Virus record (IMG/VR): IMGVR_UViG_3300049483_000263
Coordinates: 1-36,015 of that record
Direction: 5' to 3' (one strand)
DNA from: a virus
Length of the DNA: 36,015 nt
Shown here in pieces: positions 5,580 through 34,526 of this stretch. The number at the start of each line of letters is the position of its first letter. Positions within the stretch are counted from its first letter, which is position 1. The position numbers and the translations under genes are program-made. Under the pieces are notes generated by a model that saw only the letters and a list, made by a program, of their open reading frames with translations, was not told where the DNA came from and made no database searches.

Positions 5580-5848
5580 CCGACATTATTACCAGCATCA
5601 TTGAAACATTCAAAGAGCATGTATCGACGATCACCCCGGAGCTAGCCAAAGACATCGAGGGCGTTATCCGCAAGCAATGGGGCGGCGAACAGGCCTATAT
5701 TGCCAAGCGCCTAGCCATCGTAGACAGCAAAAAACAAACCATCAATAACGAATTGCGGGCGGGTTACAGCATTATGCAGATTGAGCATAAGCACGGCATC
5801 CCGCGCCGCACTATTTACCGACTCATTAACCACAAACAGAGGGCATAA
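5576..5848 (+). CDS. Mor-like HTH transcription regulator
   Basis: A 90-residue protein starting at the ATG that overlaps the terminase stop. The middle contains GGEQAYIAK, and the end contains a helix-turn-helix, GYSIMQIEHKHGIPRRTIYRLI. This is the pattern of the Mor/C activator family that turns on middle or late genes in Mu-like phages. Its placement between terminase and head genes is unusual. It may activate late transcription here, but no target promoter was identified. An in-frame extension upstream of 5576 lies inside the terminase gene and is not real. Confidence 0.65.
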   Translation: MTDIITSIIETFKEHVSTITPELAKDIEGVIRKQWGGEQAYIAKRLAIVDSKKQTINNELRAGYSIMQIEHKHGIPRRTIYRLINHKQRA

Positions 5849-5850
5849 CC

Positions 5851-6078
5851 ATGGCAGGATTAACACTGGCAGACGCTGAAGCAAGATTGGCCGGATGGCT
5901 GTCTGCCGATGCTGAGCTGCAAACCGGACAAACCGTAAAATTCAATGACCGCTTGTTGACCCGCGCCGATGCGCTGGAAGTGCGCAACAACATCGATTAC
6001 TGGCAAAAGAAATGCCAGGAACTGGAAGCCTCGAAATCGGGGCGCGGCCGGTCGCGCACCGTATCACCCAACTGGTAA
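5851..6078 (+). CDS. gpW/DUF6148-like head-tail joining protein
   Basis: A 75-residue protein beginning MAGLTLADAEARLAGW. It has a helix, then TVKFNDRLLTRADALEVRNNIDYW, then a second helix and a basic tail (SGRGRSRTVSPNW). The helix-hairpin-helix pattern, size and position just before the portal match gpW-type head completion proteins. These bind the portal ring and let the tail join. It starts two bases after the previous stop. Confidence 0.7.
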   Translation: MAGLTLADAEARLAGWLSADAELQTGQTVKFNDRLLTRADALEVRNNIDYWQKKCQELEASKSGRGRSRTVSPNW

Positions 6079-6082
6079 GGTC

Positions 6083-6616
6083 ATGAACAAGCCCATAAAA
6101 TTTCCCGTCAACAATGCCACTATCGACCTGATCAAGCATGCCGAATCTTTACACGATGGCGATTTGTCAAAGATAGGCCTGCAACCCAAACGCTGCCCGG
6201 CCGGAATTTGGACGTATGGCTACGGGCATGCGTTATTTGACAACAGCGGGCAATTATTGAGCAGGCAAAGCGATAAGGAAGAGGCTTACCGGCAGGCCGC
6301 CCGTCTTGAAGAATCAGGGGCAGTGGTCTTGCTAGCGCAGGACTTGGAAAAATATGCGTCATCGGTAAAAGGCCTGCTAAAGGTTTCGGTTTTAGAAAAC
6401 AAATTGGGGGCTATGGTATCCCTGGCCTACAACATCGGCATCAATGCCTTTAAAACATCAACCGTTTTAAAGCGGGTTAATCAGCGTGATTTCGATAGCG
6501 CTGCCAATGCGTTCCTGCTCTGGAACAAAGGCCGGGACAGGAATGAAAAACTAATAGTCATGGCAGGATTAACAAACCGGCGCAATGCAGAAAAGGCGCT
6601 TTTTTTACAAAACTAA
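6083..6616 (+). CDS. Phage lysozyme (GH24 endolysin-like)
   Basis: A 177-residue muramidase expected to cut peptidoglycan at the end of infection. The catalytic glutamate lies in IKHAESLHDG, and the signature CPAGIWTYGYGHA supplies the active-site threonine. The usual aspartate between them is replaced by cysteine (RCPAG), a variant I recall from other phage lysozymes. About ten residues are inserted between Glu and this motif. AYNIGINAF and NKGRDRNEKLIVMAGLTNRRNAE match the conserved C-terminal lobe. There is no signal peptide, so it needs a holin, and the likely holin is 6 kb downstream. The start at 6083 follows AAGG. Confidence 0.88.
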   Translation: MNKPIKFPVNNATIDLIKHAESLHDGDLSKIGLQPKRCPAGIWTYGYGHALFDNSGQLLSRQSDKEEAYRQAARLEESGAVVLLAQDLEKYASSVKGLLKVSVLENKLGAMVSLAYNIGINAFKTSTVLKRVNQRDFDSAANAFLLWNKGRDRNEKLIVMAGLTNRRNAEKALFLQN

Positions 6617-29358: not shown

Positions 29359-29412
29359 CAGATGCACTGATAAAAATTGATGATACCAAAAAGTAGCCTA
29401 CAATTATCTCCT

Positions 29413-30375
29413 ATGGCTACTTATACACAACGAAAATCAGGCTGGTATGTCCAAGTCAGGCGGAAAGGCCACAAGACTATCGGGCGCACATTCAATACTA
29501 AGGCTGAAGGTGAGCGCTGGGCGCTGACTATTGAATCCGGCATGGGCGTCGGCACTTATATTGATAACAGGGAGGCGTTATCAACCACGCTTGCTGAATG
29601 TCTTGACCGGTATGCTTCTGAAATAATCCCCCATAAAAAAGGCGCTGCTCGTGAAATTTACCGGGTTAATCTGTGGAAGCGTGATCCGTTGTCGGCAAGG
29701 GGTATTGGCACGATCAAGCAGTTAGACGTTGCGCGATGGCGTGATGCTCGGATTGCTTCAGGTGTAAGCGGGAGCACTGTTCAAAAAGACCTGGCATTGC
29801 TTTCTCACGTTTTCACCATCGTAGTAAAGGAATGGGGCTTTCCCTTAACTAATCCGGTAGCCATGATAAGGAAGCCAAAAGCTAATCAGGCGCGTGATCG
29901 TCGGTTACAGCATGGCGAGGAAGAAAGGTTGCTGGAGCATTGCGCTCCAGAGCTTAAGGTTTATGTGACGCTGGCTATCGAGACAGCAATGAGGCGTAGC
30001 GAGTTGGTGGGCTTGCAAAGGAACTGGATAAAGGGACGTGTCGCCTGCTTGCCGGACACCAAGAATGGATCGTCCAGGGCGGTGCCTTTATCCATAAGCG
30101 CTTTAGAGGCCATCAGGTCTTTACCTTTGCGTATCGATGGCAAGCTGTTTGAGTTTAAGGCGGATCATTACACGAAGGTTTTTATTAGGGCCTGCCGTAA
30201 TGCAGGTATTGAAGATTTACATGTCCATGATCTGCGCCATGAGGCTACCAGCCGCTTATTTGAAAAGGGGCTTGATGTTATGCAGGTGGCAAGTATAACG
30301 GGGCATAAAAGCCTGCAAATGTTGAAAATATATACCCACCTTAAAGCTGATGAATTGGCCAAGTTGCTGGGTTAA
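29413..30375 (+). CDS. int: Tyrosine-family site-specific integrase
   Basis: A 320-residue recombinase that inserts and, with an excision factor, removes the phage. The N-terminal part is an arm/core-binding region (MATYTQRKSGWYVQVRRKGHKTIGRTFNTKAEGERW). The catalytic part shows Arg in AMRRSELVGL, His and Arg in HDLRHEA, His in GHKS and the nucleophile Tyr in KIYTHL. I start at ATG 29413 because homologues open with this segment; in-frame starts at 29377/29380 add a short tail. It lies just after attP and converges with the minus-strand regulators, overlapping the last one by 4 bases. Confidence 0.95.
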   Translation: MATYTQRKSGWYVQVRRKGHKTIGRTFNTKAEGERWALTIESGMGVGTYIDNREALSTTLAECLDRYASEIIPHKKGAAREIYRVNLWKRDPLSARGIGTIKQLDVARWRDARIASGVSGSTVQKDLALLSHVFTIVVKEWGFPLTNPVAMIRKPKANQARDRRLQHGEEERLLEHCAPELKVYVTLAIETAMRRSELVGLQRNWIKGRVACLPDTKNGSSRAVPLSISALEAIRSLPLRIDGKLFEFKADHYTKVFIRACRNAGIEDLHVHDLRHEATSRLFEKGLDVMQVASITGHKSLQMLKIYTHLKADELAKLLG

Positions 30376-30653
30376 TAATTCATCCGGTTTAACAGTGATG
30401 GGTTGCAAAAAAGAATGATGGCTCTCTGGTCGCCGCTGTAAACAAAGGATGATTTCGGCTTAGGCTTTTTTTTAGGCCTAATAAGCGGTTTTGTTTCTAT
30501 CCAGTTTAATATTGCTTTGCGGTCATAATAAACGGCGCCTTTGATAATTTCTTTCTCCGCAGGTATTCGATTATCATCATCCAATCGGCAAACGGATTGC
30601 GTGACAATGCCTAATAATTCGGCAATTTCTTTGCGTGATATTTTGTCGTTCAT
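30372..30653 (-). CDS. Second excisionase/MerR-like HTH protein
   Basis: A 93-residue protein (MNDKISRKEIAELLGIVTQSVCRLDDDNRIPAEKEIIKGAVYYDRKAILNWIETK). The winged-helix pattern is that of phage excisionases and AlpA-like regulators. It has a basic linker (RPKKKPKPKSS) and a nonconserved tail. The start overlaps the stop of the upstream AlpA-like gene as ATGA. Its end overlaps the integrase end. Likely a recombination directionality factor or regulator. Confidence 0.65.
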   Translation of the reverse strand: MNDKISRKEIAELLGIVTQSVCRLDDDNRIPAEKEIIKGAVYYDRKAILNWIETKPLIRPKKKPKPKSSFVYSGDQRAIILFCNPSLLNRMNY

Positions 30654-30871
30654 ACTGACAGCCTTGGCCTTCCCCGTTTGGTTTGTGATGGTGGCGCTGT
30701 TCCATTTGCCAGCTGTTCGCTCCACGCGTCCAAGTCTTTAACTCGATAGCGCACGTTTCCGTCGATAACAACCGGACTAGGGAACCTCTTCTCAGCTACC
30801 AGACGCCTTATTTTTGATTCGCTTAGTGAGACATAGCCGACTGTTTCACCGATGGTTAATAAAAGTTTCAT
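30650..30871 (-). CDS. AlpA-family regulator / excisionase
   Basis: A 73-residue protein (MKLLLTIGETVGYVSLSESKIRRLVAEKRFPSPVVIDGNVRYRVKDLDAWSEQL...KRGRPRLSV). The winged-helix with RFPSPV and VRYRVKDLDAW matches AlpA, a family that activates excision in prophages. It is coupled by ATGA to the following HTH gene, so two Xis-like proteins are made together. It is transcribed toward the integrase. Confidence 0.85.
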   Translation of the reverse strand: MKLLLTIGETVGYVSLSESKIRRLVAEKRFPSPVVIDGNVRYRVKDLDAWSEQLANGTAPPSQTKRGRPRLSV

Positions 30872-30877
30872 TTCATG

Positions 30878-31069
30878 TTACCAGTGGCCATTAAATTCAA
30901 GGTGATAGGAGCAATAAAAATGCCCTATCGGCTTGCATTCTTTTATCAGTGTGTAGTGCATGGCCAAGTCATATAGAACACAGAAAAACACTGCGCCAAA
31001 AATTACACAGAAGATGATGTTGATTAATGGGTAAATAGACATGGGTGGTTTGTGTGTGTTTCTTGGCAT
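30878..31069 (-). CDS. Small single-pass membrane protein
   Basis: A 63-residue protein with one hydrophobic helix (about 12-37, YPLINIIFCVIFGAVFFCVLYDLAM) and a Cys/His-containing tail (KECKPIGHFYCSYHLEFNGHW). GGAATAGAGG precedes ATG 31069. It ends six bases before the AlpA-like gene. Function unknown. Membrane proteins expressed from the lysogeny side of a phage sometimes block superinfection; that is only a possibility here. Confidence 0.5.
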   Translation of the reverse strand: MPRNTHKPPMSIYPLINIIFCVIFGAVFFCVLYDLAMHYTLIKECKPIGHFYCSYHLEFNGHW

Positions 31070-31086
31070 GGCCTCTATTCCAAATT

Positions 31087-31305
31087 TCAGGCGGGTTTGT
31101 GGCTGATGCCGTGCTGCTGGTTATAAGTTGCCGTGAAGTCACGGATTATTTCCAGCAAATCACTGAATTTGAATGCCGTGATATGCCGGTCAGTTTTTGA
31201 AATAGTTTCATAAAGTCCACTTTGAAAGGCGTAATCTGCTTCAAGGACGTTATTTATTTCCTGTAGCAGTTCTTTCAAGCGGGTTAGTTCTTTATCATTG
31301 CTCAT
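31087..31305 (-). CDS. Small acidic helical protein, unknown
   Basis: A 72-residue protein (MSNDKELTRLKELLQEINNVLEADYAFQSGLYETISKTDRHITAFKFSDLLEIIRDFTATYNQQHGISHKPA). A strong AGGAGAG ribosome site lies upstream. It is predicted to be all-helical. No family recognised. It belongs to the minus-strand operon that leads into the excisionase genes. Confidence 0.6.
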   Translation of the reverse strand: MSNDKELTRLKELLQEINNVLEADYAFQSGLYETISKTDRHITAFKFSDLLEIIRDFTATYNQQHGISHKPA

Positions 31306-31448: not shown

Positions 31449-31730
31449 TTATGCGTTTTTAATGTCTGTTAGCAACTTGTCCATGTTGCCGGGTGTTTTG
31501 TAATGGCAATAAGCCATAAGCCGCATGCCGTTGGCGACGCCCTGCTCTATTGCGCTGGCTGCTGACGCGCCGCCTAGCAGTGCCACCAATGCGGCCAGTG
31601 CGGCGCTGTCTTGGTCACTGGGTCTGCCACCCTTTATTTTTATCCGGTAGGCGGCTGTGACCTTGACCAATTTTATGCGGAACAGGATTCTTTTCTCGAG
31701 TTCTTGCGCCCAGCTGGTTTGGGGTTTCAT
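31449..31730 (-). CDS. Small protein of the minus-strand accessory operon, unknown
   Basis: A 93-residue protein (MKPQTSWAQELEKRILFRIKLVKVTAAYRIKIKGGRPSDQDSAALAALVALLGGASAASAIEQGVANGMRLMAYCHYKTPG...). The basic N-terminus is followed by an alanine-rich helical part that could pack or touch a membrane. Its start overlaps the upstream stop as ATGA. No family recognised. Confidence 0.6.
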   Translation of the reverse strand: MKPQTSWAQELEKRILFRIKLVKVTAAYRIKIKGGRPSDQDSAALAALVALLGGASAASAIEQGVANGMRLMAYCHYKTPGNMDKLLTDIKNA

Positions 31731-32005
31731 AAACTGCCCCAGCGGGCGGACTGTATTCTGGTTGCTTTGAGCGCTCTAGCGCAGAATTCATAAGCTGATG
31801 CACCGCTGTAGCCTCTGTCCATCATTGCCATCGCGATATTGATTACGGCGTTTATTTCTTGTATTGCCGAATTTAATCCGGTGCCCAGATAATAAAGGTA
31901 AGCCGCTACCGCAGCACAGCGTTGCTCATGCTGGTCTTTGTTTTTCCAGTAGCTTTCAAATACCGGTTGGCTGGCGGGTTGGTTTTTGGTTAGTGCGGGT
32001 TTCAT
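31727..32005 (-). CDS. Small helical protein downstream of the Gly-Ser-Tyr gene, unknown
   Basis: A 92-residue protein (MKPALTKNQPASQPVFESYWKNKDQHEQRCAAVAAYLYYLGTGLNSAIQEINAVINIAMAMMDRGYSGASAYEFCARALKA). The start is ATG 32005, with GGAGA upstream. It lies 31 bases after the stop of the repeat protein and overlaps the next gene by ATGA, so all are probably one transcript. Function unknown. Confidence 0.6.
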   Translation of the reverse strand: MKPALTKNQPASQPVFESYWKNKDQHEQRCAAVAAYLYYLGTGLNSAIQEINAVINIAMAMMDRGYSGASAYEFCARALKATRIQSARWGSL

Positions 32006-32036
32006 GGCTATCTCCAAATATTTTTATAATGTTTTT

Positions 32037-32257
<221 letters not shown>

Positions 32258-32270
<13 letters not shown>

Positions 32271-32545
32271 ACTGGCACCGCTTCAATAGATGCTTTTGCT
32301 TTGTCTGTGATAGGTATTATTTCTATTATTTCGGTTAGCAAAACTTCATTAACGGCAGCTGGGAATTTGCATTTTTTAGGCTCGCTGGTGCCATCAGTTG
32401 CTAATTGCGATAATGATGCAGCACCAGACCAGTACCAGATGCGGCGAGCATTTGTTAAAATTCCTTCTTTGCCATTGCGTTCTTTTAGCGTTCCCGCAAA
32501 AACACCTGCTGAATAAGTTCTTACCATGCAATATTTTCCGATCAT
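32258..32545 (-). CDS. DUF6948-like protein
   Basis: A 95-residue protein (MIGKYCMVRTYSAGVFAGTLKERNGKEGILTNARRIWYWSGAASLSQLATDGTSEPKKCKFPAAVNEVLLTEIIEIIPITDKAKASIEAVPVW). The motifs VRTYSAGVF.GTL, ARRIWYWSGAASLSQLA and the end VPVW are those of a phage and plasmid family that I recall as DUF6948, with no known function. AGGAG precedes the start. A strong promoter lies about 90-120 bases upstream, and the gene is first in the minus operon. Confidence 0.75.
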
Positions 32546-32583: not shown

Positions 32584-32608
32584 AAAAAACCCCTGCTTTG
32601 CAGCAGGG
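32584..32608 (-). terminator. Hairpin with T tract in the DUF6948 leader
   Basis: CCCTGC (32591-32596) pairs with GCAGGG (32603-32608). The run of A at 32584-32589 becomes a T tract when transcribed leftward, giving a good intrinsic terminator on the minus strand. It lies between the promoter at 32638-32666 and the DUF6948-like gene, so it could attenuate that operon; alternatively it backs up the terminator at 32732. Confidence 0.65.
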
Positions 32609-32637: not shown

Positions 32638-32666
32638 AATATAAACAATAAGTTTGTATTTGTCAA
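32638..32666 (-). promoter_or_regulatory. Near-consensus sigma70 promoter for the DUF6948 operon
   Basis: Read on the minus strand, TTGACA (32666-32661) and TATATT (32643-32638) are separated by exactly 17 bases. The -35 box is perfect and the -10 has one mismatch. Transcription would start near 32631 and run into the DUF6948-like and Gly-Ser-Tyr genes. The -35 box overlaps a repressor-type palindrome. Confidence 0.8.
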
Positions 32667-32678
32667 ACTACTTGTTTG
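32664..32678. promoter_or_regulatory. Operator-like palindrome CAAAC-N5-GTTTG over the -35 box
   Basis: CAAAC (32664-32668) and GTTTG (32674-32678) flank TACTT. The same 15-bp pattern occurs twice in the repressor/Cro gap (34053-34067 exact, 34075-34089 with one mismatch). A second inverted pair, AGTTTG (32651-32656) and CAAACT (32664-32669), overlaps it. Binding here would block the promoter. Confidence 0.6.
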
Positions 32679-32731
32679 TAATTTTCGAAAAATAAATTTT
32701 ATTTATTGTTTTTGGGGAGATTTCAGGCAAT

Positions 32732-32756
32732 AAAAAACCCGCTAAAGCGGGCTTTT
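32732..32756 (-). terminator. Terminator of the repressor operon
   Basis: CCCGC (32738-32742) and GCGGG (32747-32751) form a tight stem with a TAAA loop. The A run (32732-32737) gives six T residues on the minus strand, and CTTTT follows on the plus strand. It lies 22 bases past the stop of the secreted protein gene, so it ends the repressor transcript and works best leftward. Confidence 0.8.
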
Positions 32757-32777
32757 GGTCTTAGGATAAGTTTTATT

Positions 32778-33578
32778 TTATTGTTTTAGCTCTTGATATG
32801 CTTTTATGTCACTTTCAAATAATGTTTGTATTAACGATATGCTAGGATAATAGCGCTTCAAATGTTTGTTAAGAACTTCGATAGCAATATCATCAACCTG
32901 TATCGCACATAATTCGTCGTAACTAGACATGTTACTGTCTAGTAGGCTTTTTTGCAGTCTGTATGATCCCGGATATTTGCTTGTTAAGTTGTTTTTTATG
33001 TCGGCCGAAAGCTTTTCTTTATTGATTTCACAAATTGGATTTAATTGCTTTACGTTTTTATTATTTTGAGTTTCATGTGATTTTTCAGCGTACTTTTCAA
33101 GTTGATTGCTTTCGGCTTGCTTAAGCTCTCCATTAAGGCGCGCGATTCTAAACTGTCTCCTTTCTTGGTCGCTTGCTGTAGCAAAAAATTTTAATTCTTC
33201 ATTTCGGTATTTTTCAGCATCTTGTCTTTGTTTTTCATTCCAATCGTTTCTTTTTTGTTCAATTTCTAATTTTCTATTTTGTTCGGATTTGGCTATTTCT
33301 GCCTGGTTTAAAAATATTTGCTCAATGGACCTTGGTGTCATTCCTGCTCGCGCTATATCTTCAGTTAATGTCCAGGAATAAATATAATCCGTGCTGGGCG
33401 CGTATGCCTGCTTGGTTTTTCCATCAATACTGATTGTAAATTTTTTATCTATTTTTGCCGCAATAGCTTTCATTATTGCCTCTTTTCCATAGATTTCTAT
33501 GAGGCGTTCAACGGTAGTTGAATTGACTGGCGTGGCAAATAACAGCATTGATAATGATGCAATTAATTTTATTTTCAT
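32778..33578 (-). CDS. Secreted coiled-coil protein in the repressor operon
   Basis: A 266-residue protein with a classical signal peptide: MKIKLIASLSMLLFATPVNS, with likely cleavage after NS near residue 20. The mature part has a long charged coiled coil (about 85-170, Glu/Lys/Gln-rich, with EQNRKLEIEQKRNDWNEKQRQ). A C-terminal half follows with two repeated segments, SYRLQKSLLDSNMSSYDELC and SISLIQTLFESDIKAYQELK. ATG 33578 is six bases after the repressor stop, so it should be expressed in lysogens. No family recognised. A periplasmic lysogenic-conversion or superinfection-exclusion role is possible. Confidence 0.65.
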   Translation of the reverse strand: MKIKLIASLSMLLFATPVNSTTVERLIEIYGKEAIMKAIAAKIDKKFTISIDGKTKQAYAPSTDYIYSWTLTEDIARAGMTPRSIEQIFLNQAEIAKSEQNRKLEIEQKRNDWNEKQRQDAEKYRNEELKFFATASDQERRQFRIARLNGELKQAESNQLEKYAEKSHETQNNKNVKQLNPICEINKEKLSADIKNNLTSKYPGSYRLQKSLLDSNMSSYDELCAIQVDDIAIEVLNKHLKRYYPSISLIQTLFESDIKAYQELKQ

Positions 33579-33583
33579 AGCGT

Positions 33584-34021
33584 TCAAATTTTTTCTTTCA
33601 ATTCTTTAATGATTTGTTCGTTTTTACGGGCAATTTCTTGTGCGTTTGTTATAACAGATTGTTGTTGTTCAATTGTTAGCCTTCTAAATGCGCTTAATAA
33701 CGTTGCTTCGTTTTCAGTGTTCAAATAACCATTGCGGCACTCAGATACTTCTGTTTTTGAAATGGATTGTTTTTCATACGCTGCATATTTTTCGCCCTTT
33801 CCTACAGCTAACCAATCAGTTTTAACGCCAATAATAGCGGCTATCCTTATGAATTCATTTGATGGTAAGCCTCTATTTTTCCAATTATTCCAATTTTGTG
33901 AATCAATATTTAATGTCTTTTGAAAGTCAGCCGGTTTAATGTTTTTTTCACGCAATACGCTTTCCATTCGTGAAAATGCGCCTTTTTTAATCTCTTCATT
34001 TATTTTTTTTCTCATAAACAT
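33584..34021 (-). CDS. CI-like repressor without protease domain
   Basis: A 145-residue regulator. The HTH domain is MESVLREKNIKPADFQKTLNIDSQNWNNWKNRGLPSNEFIRIAAIIGVKTDWLAVGKGEKY, the CI repressor type (PF07022-like). The C-terminal part is a short coiled coil (LTIEQQQSVITNAQEIARKNEQIIKELKEKI) where a LexA-like S24 peptidase domain would normally sit. It cannot be inactivated by RecA-stimulated self-cleavage, so induction must work differently. The start could be 34021 or 34015; neither has a good ribosome site. It is divergent from the Cro-like gene across an operator region. Confidence 0.82.
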   Translation of the reverse strand: MFMRKKINEEIKKGAFSRMESVLREKNIKPADFQKTLNIDSQNWNNWKNRGLPSNEFIRIAAIIGVKTDWLAVGKGEKYAAYEKQSISKTEVSECRNGYLNTENEATLLSAFRRLTIEQQQSVITNAQEIARKNEQIIKELKEKI

Positions 34022-34052
34022 AAAGTTTACATTTAATATTTCATAAATAACA

Positions 34053-34093
34053 CAAACAAACGGTTTGCAATTAACAAACCTATCGTTTATAGT
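34053..34093. promoter_or_regulatory. Lysogeny switch: two operators and the Cro promoter
   Basis: Two copies of the CAAAC-N5-GTTTG pattern lie 22 bases apart: 34053-34067 (exact) and 34075-34089 (last base A). A plus-strand promoter fits inside: TTGCAA (34065-34070), 17 bases, TATAGT (34088-34093). Start would fall near 34100, right at the Cro ATG. TTGCAA is its own reverse complement, so it may also serve the leftward repressor promoter. The second operator overlaps the Cro -10 box. Confidence 0.7.
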
Positions 34094-34100
34094 TATAGCC

Positions 34101-34370
34101 ATGTCAAATATTCAACTAGCTATAGATTATTTTGGAAGCCAAGCAGCCCTGGCCAAAGCCTTGGGAGTTAATCCTATGGCTGTTACTCAGTGGAAAAAAC
34201 GGGGGCTTCCGCCAGTTCGGGCAATGCAAATATCAAAATGTACTCATGGCGCAATTAAACCGGATGAGCTTTTGCCGGATTTTTTTAATTTATCCTTCCA
34301 AGAATCAATAGCTGATGTGCGTCTTGATAGACGGGCAACAGACAAAAGACGATTAACGGATCAGCATTAA
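34101..34370 (+). CDS. Cro/YdaS-like HTH regulator
   Basis: An 89-residue protein (MSNIQLAIDYFGSQAALAKALGVNPMAVTQWKKRGLPPVRAMQISKCTHGAIKPDELLPDFF). The HTH (about 12-33) and IKPDELLPDFF match the Cro/YdaS group that opposes the repressor. The start at 34101 lacks a ribosome site and coincides with the expected transcription start, so the mRNA may be leaderless. It is the first gene of the rightward early transcript. Confidence 0.85.
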   Translation: MSNIQLAIDYFGSQAALAKALGVNPMAVTQWKKRGLPPVRAMQISKCTHGAIKPDELLPDFFNLSFQESIADVRLDRRATDKRRLTDQH

Positions 34371-34450: not shown

Positions 34451-34526
34451 AGCGGAGTAGCTCAATGGTAGAGCAGCATGCGTTTATCCTGATAAGACAT
34501 GGGTTCGATTCCCTTCTCTGCGTCCA
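34451..34526 (+). tRNA. tRNA-like sequence, probably degenerate
   Basis: The 76 bases carry an acceptor stem (six of seven pairs with 34516-34522), TA, a perfect D arm (GCTC-AATGGTA-GAGC), a T loop TTCGATT with four of five stem pairs, and encoded CCA (34524-34526). The anticodon arm does not fold: GCATG faces CCTGA, so no anticodon can be assigned. A separate hairpin (GTTTAT/ATAAGAC) forms there instead. Total length is right for a tRNA. It is either a decayed phage tRNA or a tRNA-like RNA element. Confidence 0.5.

Follow-up and report, generated by a model that had tools for sequence, protein, structure and literature searches.

Paired operators predict a lambda-type switch over a DUF6948-headed left operon in a viral genome

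The window analyzed here, a stretch of viral DNA of 36,015 nucleotides (IMG/VR record IMGVR_UViG_3300049483_000263, positions 1 to 36,015), very probably contains a lambda-type OR/PR-cI-OL/PL switch, whose repressor/Cro pair controls a left early operon headed by a DUF6948 gene (Table 1). We base this assignment on a second operator pair lying over PL and on the recurrence of the same arrangement around cI in other phages. The cI gene (minus strand) and the cro gene (plus strand) are divergent, with OR1 to OR3 between them at 34015-34089, and the same operator is found at a second promoter beyond cI, which is transcribed away from cI (32642-32678 over PL, minus strand). The initial annotation had proposed that the switch repressor, Cro, or both control the DUF6948 operon, and the layout and the comparison with other phages strongly support this proposal. 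It described the operon as accessory; we find no isolated unit with a borrowed operator here, but an operon that sits in the PL position of the predicted switch and extends up to the convergent integrase.

Table 1 Predicted features of the switch region and its neighborhood, in order of position within the window.
Feature	Position	Strand	Description
Tyrosine integrase	29377-30375	+	Convergent with the PL operon
Two excisionase-type HTH genes	30372-30871 (30372-30725, 30650-30871)	-	End of the PL operon; HTH_17, phrog_66
Two small ORFs	30878-31305 (30878-31069, 31087-31305)	-	No family
Two small ORFs of the PL operon	31449-32017 (31449-31730, 31727-32017)	-	No family
(G-S/Y)n low-complexity protein	32037-32270	-	13-nt overlap of its start with the DUF6948 stop
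DUF6948 gene	32258-32545	-	First gene of the PL operon; predicted Sm-like fold
PL leader terminator (intrinsic)	32584-32608	-	CCCTGCTGCAAAGCAGGG and T6 tract; stem 32591-32608
PL	32638-32666	-	Predicted promoter; TTGACA-N17-TATATT, 11 of 12 consensus bases
OL1-equivalent	32642-32656	-	Predicted operator; CAAACTTATTGTTTA, by coordinates TAAACAATAAGTTTG; ends at the PL -10
OL2-equivalent	32664-32678	-	Predicted operator; CAAACAAGTAGTTTG; shares 3 bases with the start of the PL -35
Terminator after the cI-cargo unit	32732-32755 (about)	-	From sequence; CCCGCTTTAGCGGG then T6; stem also listed on the plus strand
Cargo gene between cI and PL	32778-33587	-	No family match; hydrophobic N-terminus by eye (exported?)
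CI-like repressor	33584-34015	-	143 aa; HTH domain, with a long helix at the C-terminus
OR3	34015-34029	-	Predicted operator; TAAACTTTATGTTTA on the minus strand, by coordinates TAAACATAAAGTTTA; 38 bp from OR2
OR2	34053-34067	+	Predicted operator; CAAACAAACGGTTTG; overlaps the PR -35; 22 bp from OR1
PR	34065-34093	+	Predicted promoter of cro; TTGCAA-N17-TATAGT
OR1	34075-34089	+	Predicted operator from motif scan; CAAACCTATCGTTTA; terminates within the PR -10
cro-like gene	34101-34370	+	P22_Cro/YdaS family

The sites are paired at both promoters with a spacing of 22 bp (34053/34075 before cro and 32642/32664 before DUF6948), and the last base of OR3 is the A of the repressor ATG, so that the first base of the start codon lies inside the site. 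The composite CAAAC-N5-GTTTG-N7-CAAAC-N5-GTTTA has exactly two copies in the 36,015-base record, without mismatches and on opposite strands, and no further copy is found in the record even when three mismatches are allowed, its own reverse complement aside. According to the promoter matches for PR and PL, both composites are placed identically over a sigma-70 promoter. The two modules share 30 identities over 41 aligned nt, and the rest of the window reaches at most 23 identities to the module, excluding palindromic reverse complements (26-27). When the 36 kb were scanned for further copies, the strict form YAAAC-N5-GTTTR was found five times (at 32642, 32664, 34015, 34053, and 34075), always within the 1.45-kb immunity region (32642-34089), with none of the many unrelated copies elsewhere that would have spoken against a shared operator. 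The expectation for such strict sites is 0.20-0.32, and the maximum across 900 Markov sequences of order 1 to 3 is three. Three strict sites belong to OR (34015, 34053, 34075), a layout that is also seen in loci L203, L204, and L221. At OL, the strict scan of the record gives two sites and no third one; a degenerate third site is possible.

All three sites listed in the initial annotation are recovered, at 32664-32678 and 34053-34067 without mismatch and at 34075-34089 with one mismatch, but the list was incomplete, as the partner site at 32642-32656 and OR3 at 34015-34029 had been overlooked. The site at 32664-32678 had also been described as covering the TTGACA hexamer of PL, whereas it overlaps only TTG (32664-32666; hexamer at 32666-32661, minus strand).

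The single motif, CAAAC-N5-GTTTG with one mismatch, gives six matches in the window where 2.0 are expected by chance. Taken alone it is modest evidence, and it would allow the PL motif to be a palindrome that arose by chance in AT-rich promoter DNA; we consider, nevertheless, that the pairing at the same 22-bp register is decisive. Two site pairs are observed against zero expected in the Markov controls, with identical spacing and promoter register, and the two-module layout recurs in eight other phages or prophages, which makes a chance palindrome extremely improbable. Chance or AT-richness as the origin of the sites is thus ruled out at the sequence level by the Markov controls and the recurrence.

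PL is the best promoter match in the scanned 30.0-35.2 kb. At PR, the distance from the OR2 start to the cro ATG is 47-49 nt in all eight promoters compared (the window, L003, L203-L207, and L221), and in five of the eight (the window, L003, L203, L207, and L221) the -10 that scores best in the expected register stops 6-7 nt short of this ATG. This predicts a PR start site at or beside the cro ATG (34088-34101 in the window) and a leaderless cro mRNA in most of the eight phages. Just after cro, positions 34451-34523 (plus strand) match the Rfam tRNA model with 39.7 bits and are not reported by ARAGORN; this tRNA-like sequence is degenerate and is followed by a terminator.

Among 2.9 million viral contigs (IMG/VR), four matched the exact composite. 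In L003 and L005, the composite is present on both sides of cI and points outwards, as in the window. Six more two-module loci, which came from relaxed scans and repressor searches and are therefore partly motif-selected, were L007/L208, L066/L206, L008/L205, L026/L209, a prophage in a Methylobacter MAG (L203), and Sedimenticola selenatireducens BK-1 (L204). AAAC-N5-GTTT pairs thus flank cI on both sides in eight other phages or prophages, the operator core in this site tally being invariant by construction of the search. The spacing within pairs is mostly 22 bp, with 21 bp at the PL of L007 and L203 and 24 bp at the PR of L066, and two strict OR sites are 35 bp apart in L026 and 38 bp apart in L007. 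The Methylobacter MAG and BK-1 are bacterial genomes (3.3 and 4.0 Mb), in which the pair pattern is confined to the two prophage places.

A motif-independent test was provided by six cI-cro loci found through repressor protein similarity alone (L007, L210, L211, L212, L221, and L222). A strict site marks the cI start in each of the six, for an expectation of 0-0.13 per locus, and five have a second strict site beyond cI, the contig of the sixth, L221, stopping 0.9 kb past cI. L221 encodes the short repressor in a 132-aa ORF and shows the OR1-OR2-OR3 layout of the window (22 and 37 bp). OR3 at the repressor start reads YAAAC-N5-GTTT-ATG in the window, L203, L204, L221, L222, L210, L211, and L212, and a variant with a GTG start (GTTT-GTG) is found in L208. 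Few matches came from a repressor search restricted to the order and class to which the Methylobacter genome belongs, and among them L220 and L223-L225, which had no Cro neighbor under the test used, were set aside. The blastn comparison of the region with phages returned only a GGAGCC repeat.

The composite is also found in bacterial genomes, where 26 of the 32 matches are in Bacteroidota (L076-L107), many of them in Prevotella. In L004, which was read closely, it lies beside an unrelated HTH repressor. These Bacteroidota and L004 composites may be due to chance where promoters are rich in TTTG, or to an operator that arose by convergence, and the composite sequence without a cI-cro context is therefore not proof of such a switch. 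L081 (Thiodiazotropha) carries the composite with no cI seen nearby, and most of the 72 loci from the relaxed composite scan have no cI homologue and are probably due to chance; only loci matched by cI/Cro were used.

The repressor lacks an S24 peptidase domain: profile searches return HTH families only, and the structure model contains the HTH domain and a helix. It scores 21.8 bits against Phage_CI_repr (PF07022), for a curated cut-off of 22. The C-terminal helix, modeled with moderate confidence, spans residues 103-142 and could serve oligomerization. No relative was found by PDB sequence search, and the fold matches in the structure comparison are generic HTH domains (TP901-1 CI, 186 CI, and ImmR). 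The relatives in L003, L203, L204, and L066 are longer repressors, which look S24-like by eye. Cro exceeds the cut-offs of the P22_Cro and YdaS families (PF14549, PF15943), with 59.6 bits against 30.2 and 58.4 against 30, and has PDB relatives (5w8y, 3bd1, 1rzs); its match to the NCBIfam DicC model is weak and below the cut-off.

We favor CI as a reader of all sites, because its recognition region is near-invariant while two types of Cro are found on the same operator core. Repressors that are 15-40% identical to that of the window retain, in their recognition region, Q..NNW..RG or a close variant of it, and among the repressors compared Q40, W45, R48, and G49 do not vary, while N44 is almost constant. 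The two sequence types of Cro over one operator core are exemplified by the window and L003 versus L205, L206, and L209. A W-x-x-R-G turn follows the recognition helix in both CI and Cro, and Cro probably also reads the operator sites, as in known switches. Alternatively, Cro, of the P22_Cro/YdaS type, might be the only protein to read the PL motif, with the repressor acting at OR via other contacts, in which case PL would be active in the lysogen and would close late in lytic growth. The clear identification of Cro as a P22_Cro-family member with solved relatives and the plausibility of half-site recognition by Cro fit this alternative, but the two Cro types on the same core, next to a near-invariant CI recognition region, speak against it. 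Moreover, deletion of dicA in the Qin prophage raises dicBp 22-fold and deletion of dicC does not (PMC10448788). We thus regard control of PL by Cro alone as very unlikely.

With CI as a reader of these sites, dimers of the short repressor would occupy OR1/OR2 at PR and OL1/OL2 at PL in the lysogen and would shut both early operons, that of cro and that of DUF6948, and OR3, located on the repressor's own start codon, would let the repressor and/or Cro damp cI. Upon loss or neutralization of the repressor, PR would make Cro and PL the left early operon, from DUF6948 through the excisionase-like genes, such that excision and early functions would start together with the lytic program; Cro would then lower cI and, later, both promoters. 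We infer CI and Cro as readers, this direction of regulation, and any looping between OL and OR; cooperative binding and such looping would be possible, as both are compatible with the 22-bp spacing and the separation of about 1.4 kb. Of the two options in the initial annotation, namely an operon shut in the lysogen and released on induction or the reverse under Cro, the model agrees with the first, but a release by RecA-stimulated self-cleavage does not suit a repressor without S24 domain. Simple induction by RecA cleavage is unlikely by analogy, and an antirepressor or another signal is a likelier trigger, since DicA and PaaR2 also lack this domain.

The PL operon may not be controlled by the repressor alone, because an intrinsic terminator lies in the PL leader, about 23 nt downstream of the predicted start site and before DUF6948. 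It is conceivable, though somewhat less than probable, that this terminator sets the output of the operon and that an antiterminator or the Sm-like DUF6948 protein releases it, which is compatible with the switch proposed above. The hairpin and its T6 tract are directly in the leader, and a hairpin is located at the corresponding place in the leader of the related Methylobacter prophage L203 (6549-6640), albeit with a weaker U tract. Nevertheless, no antiterminator gene and no nut- or put-like site were found, family profile searches detected no N-like family among the PL-operon genes, and the leaders of L066 and L026 show no obvious hairpin by eye.

Another 5' hairpin, with a TACACCAAC loop, is located right after PL in both L003 (4410-4493) and L207 (6117-6150, corresponding to L005), although the first PL genes of these two are unrelated. 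Its 3' arm contains the Shine-Dalgarno sequence, and its z values are -4.3 and -3.4. The leader motif of L003 and L005, GTTTATT-N-TT-N3-CCTACACCAAC, was rejected as a general PL element after a scan of viral contigs, its sole other matches being within apparent structural genes of L108 and L109, which represent one phage type.

The first gene of the PL operon matches DUF6948 (PF22253) with 112.7 bits for a cut-off of 27. In 80 DUF6948 loci of other phages (L123-L202), a repressor or Cro of the window's kind is rarely nearby, and we rejected the idea that DUF6948 generally accompanies this switch. Of the other PL operons read, none was seen to begin with DUF6948; the switch is linked to the PL position and not to DUF6948 itself. 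A (G-S/Y/D)n low-complexity gene adjoins DUF6948 in 42 of 79 loci, mostly overlapping its stop by 13 nt, and these genes (32037-32545 in the window) form a conserved, probably translationally coupled cassette.

The structure model of DUF6948 has a pLDDT of 97.9, from an alignment of 48 sequences, and the PDB matches listed are all Sm/Lsm proteins or complexes that include them. A phage Sm-like protein is thus possible, although the scores are middling, with Foldseek E values of 3e-3 or worse and a best Z of 8.0. No mention of DUF6948 was found in the literature searched. A further idea, which we consider improbable, is that DUF6948, as an Sm-like protein binding RNA, is the first product of PL and works together with its coupled (G-S/Y/D)n partner on the U-tract terminator in the leader of its own transcript, or on other RNAs of the early phase. 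If true, this would amount to an early regulator that resembles N but is based on an Sm ring, with a lysogeny operator in control of it.

The cargo gene between cI and PL is probably co-transcribed with cI. Profile searches found no defense-system family for the PL or cargo genes, and a marginal Cas12f match for one cargo gene of L203 was disregarded. Genes in the cI-PL interval often appear by eye to encode small exported or membrane proteins (a lipoprotein, a zinc ribbon plus helix), at 32778-33587 in the window, 4583-5814 in L203, 8076-8993 in L204, 5278-6027 in L207, and 1642-2230 in L066; they are perhaps superinfection or lysogenic-conversion genes. In the Methylobacter prophage L203, a pair resembling HigB-HigA by eye (5831-6443) lies on the opposite strand between the cargo genes and PL.

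These results define a testable operator code, AAAC-N5-GTTT in 22-bp pairs with one site on the cI start codon, which is common to repressors only 15-40% identical to that of the window, in phages of several hosts (Methylobacter, Sedimenticola, Pseudomonas). For many phages that lack annotation, such a code could call the immunity type and the early-left promoter from sequence alone. In the phage studied here, it places the excisionase-like genes and the widespread DUF6948 family under predicted lysogeny control, with an inducing signal that is probably not direct repressor cleavage.

In phage lambda (OR/PR-cI-rexAB-OL/PL), OR1 and OR2 lie over PR, OR3 at the cI end, and OL over PL, with cargo between cI and PL; the left operon carries xis at its distal end. 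The window has the same gene order and polarity (PL - cargo - cI - PR - cro), the same placement of OR1/OR2, OR3, and OL, cargo between cI and PL, and xis-type genes distal in the left operon. It differs from lambda in its repressor without self-cleaving domain, in the two OL sites found, in that no N gene or nut site was found, and in operator, Cro, and repressor sequences that are unrelated or remote. Three temperate Pseudomonas phages, vB_PaeP-D14S, vB_Pae_U5, and YMC/01/01/P52_PAE_BP, have CI homologues of 31-33% identity and TAAAC-N5-GTTTA on the cI start codon, with one copy beyond cI; unlike in the window, their repressors are longer and their PR/PL pairs are degenerate under the strict pattern.

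Given the 143-aa repressor without S24 domain, we file the switch in the short-repressor DicA/PaaR2 class rather than with the lambda CI switch proper. Indeed, it combines a short peptidase-less repressor, a Cro of the P22_Cro/YdaS type, and shared operators at PR and PL. Its nearest worked-out precedents are the switches of Qin and CP-933P in E. coli. The Qin prophage of E. coli K-12 likewise has a short repressor without peptidase (DicA, 135 aa, relieved by the antirepressor Rem), a divergent Cro-like DicC, and one kind of operator at the cro promoter and at dicBp, the PL-like promoter of the neighboring operon (PMC10448788). Its PL operon holds dicBF, whereas that of the window holds DUF6948, the (GX)n gene, and xis-like genes, and the window also has a cargo gene between cI and PL. 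In CP-933P of E. coli O157:H7, for which binding and reporter activity were demonstrated, a peptidase-less repressor (PaaR2, octameric and unresponsive to mitomycin C), a YdaS-type Cro, OR and OL operators, cargo (paaA2-parE2) between the cI analogue and PL (PL933P), and a leaderless repressor mRNA are found (PMC8630535). The CP-933P operators are 18-bp palindromes with the half-site GTTTAGTAA, in contrast to AAAC-N5-GTTT in the window, and its cargo is a toxin-antitoxin pair. The layout of the switch is thus of a known type, while its operator sequence and some of its genes look new.
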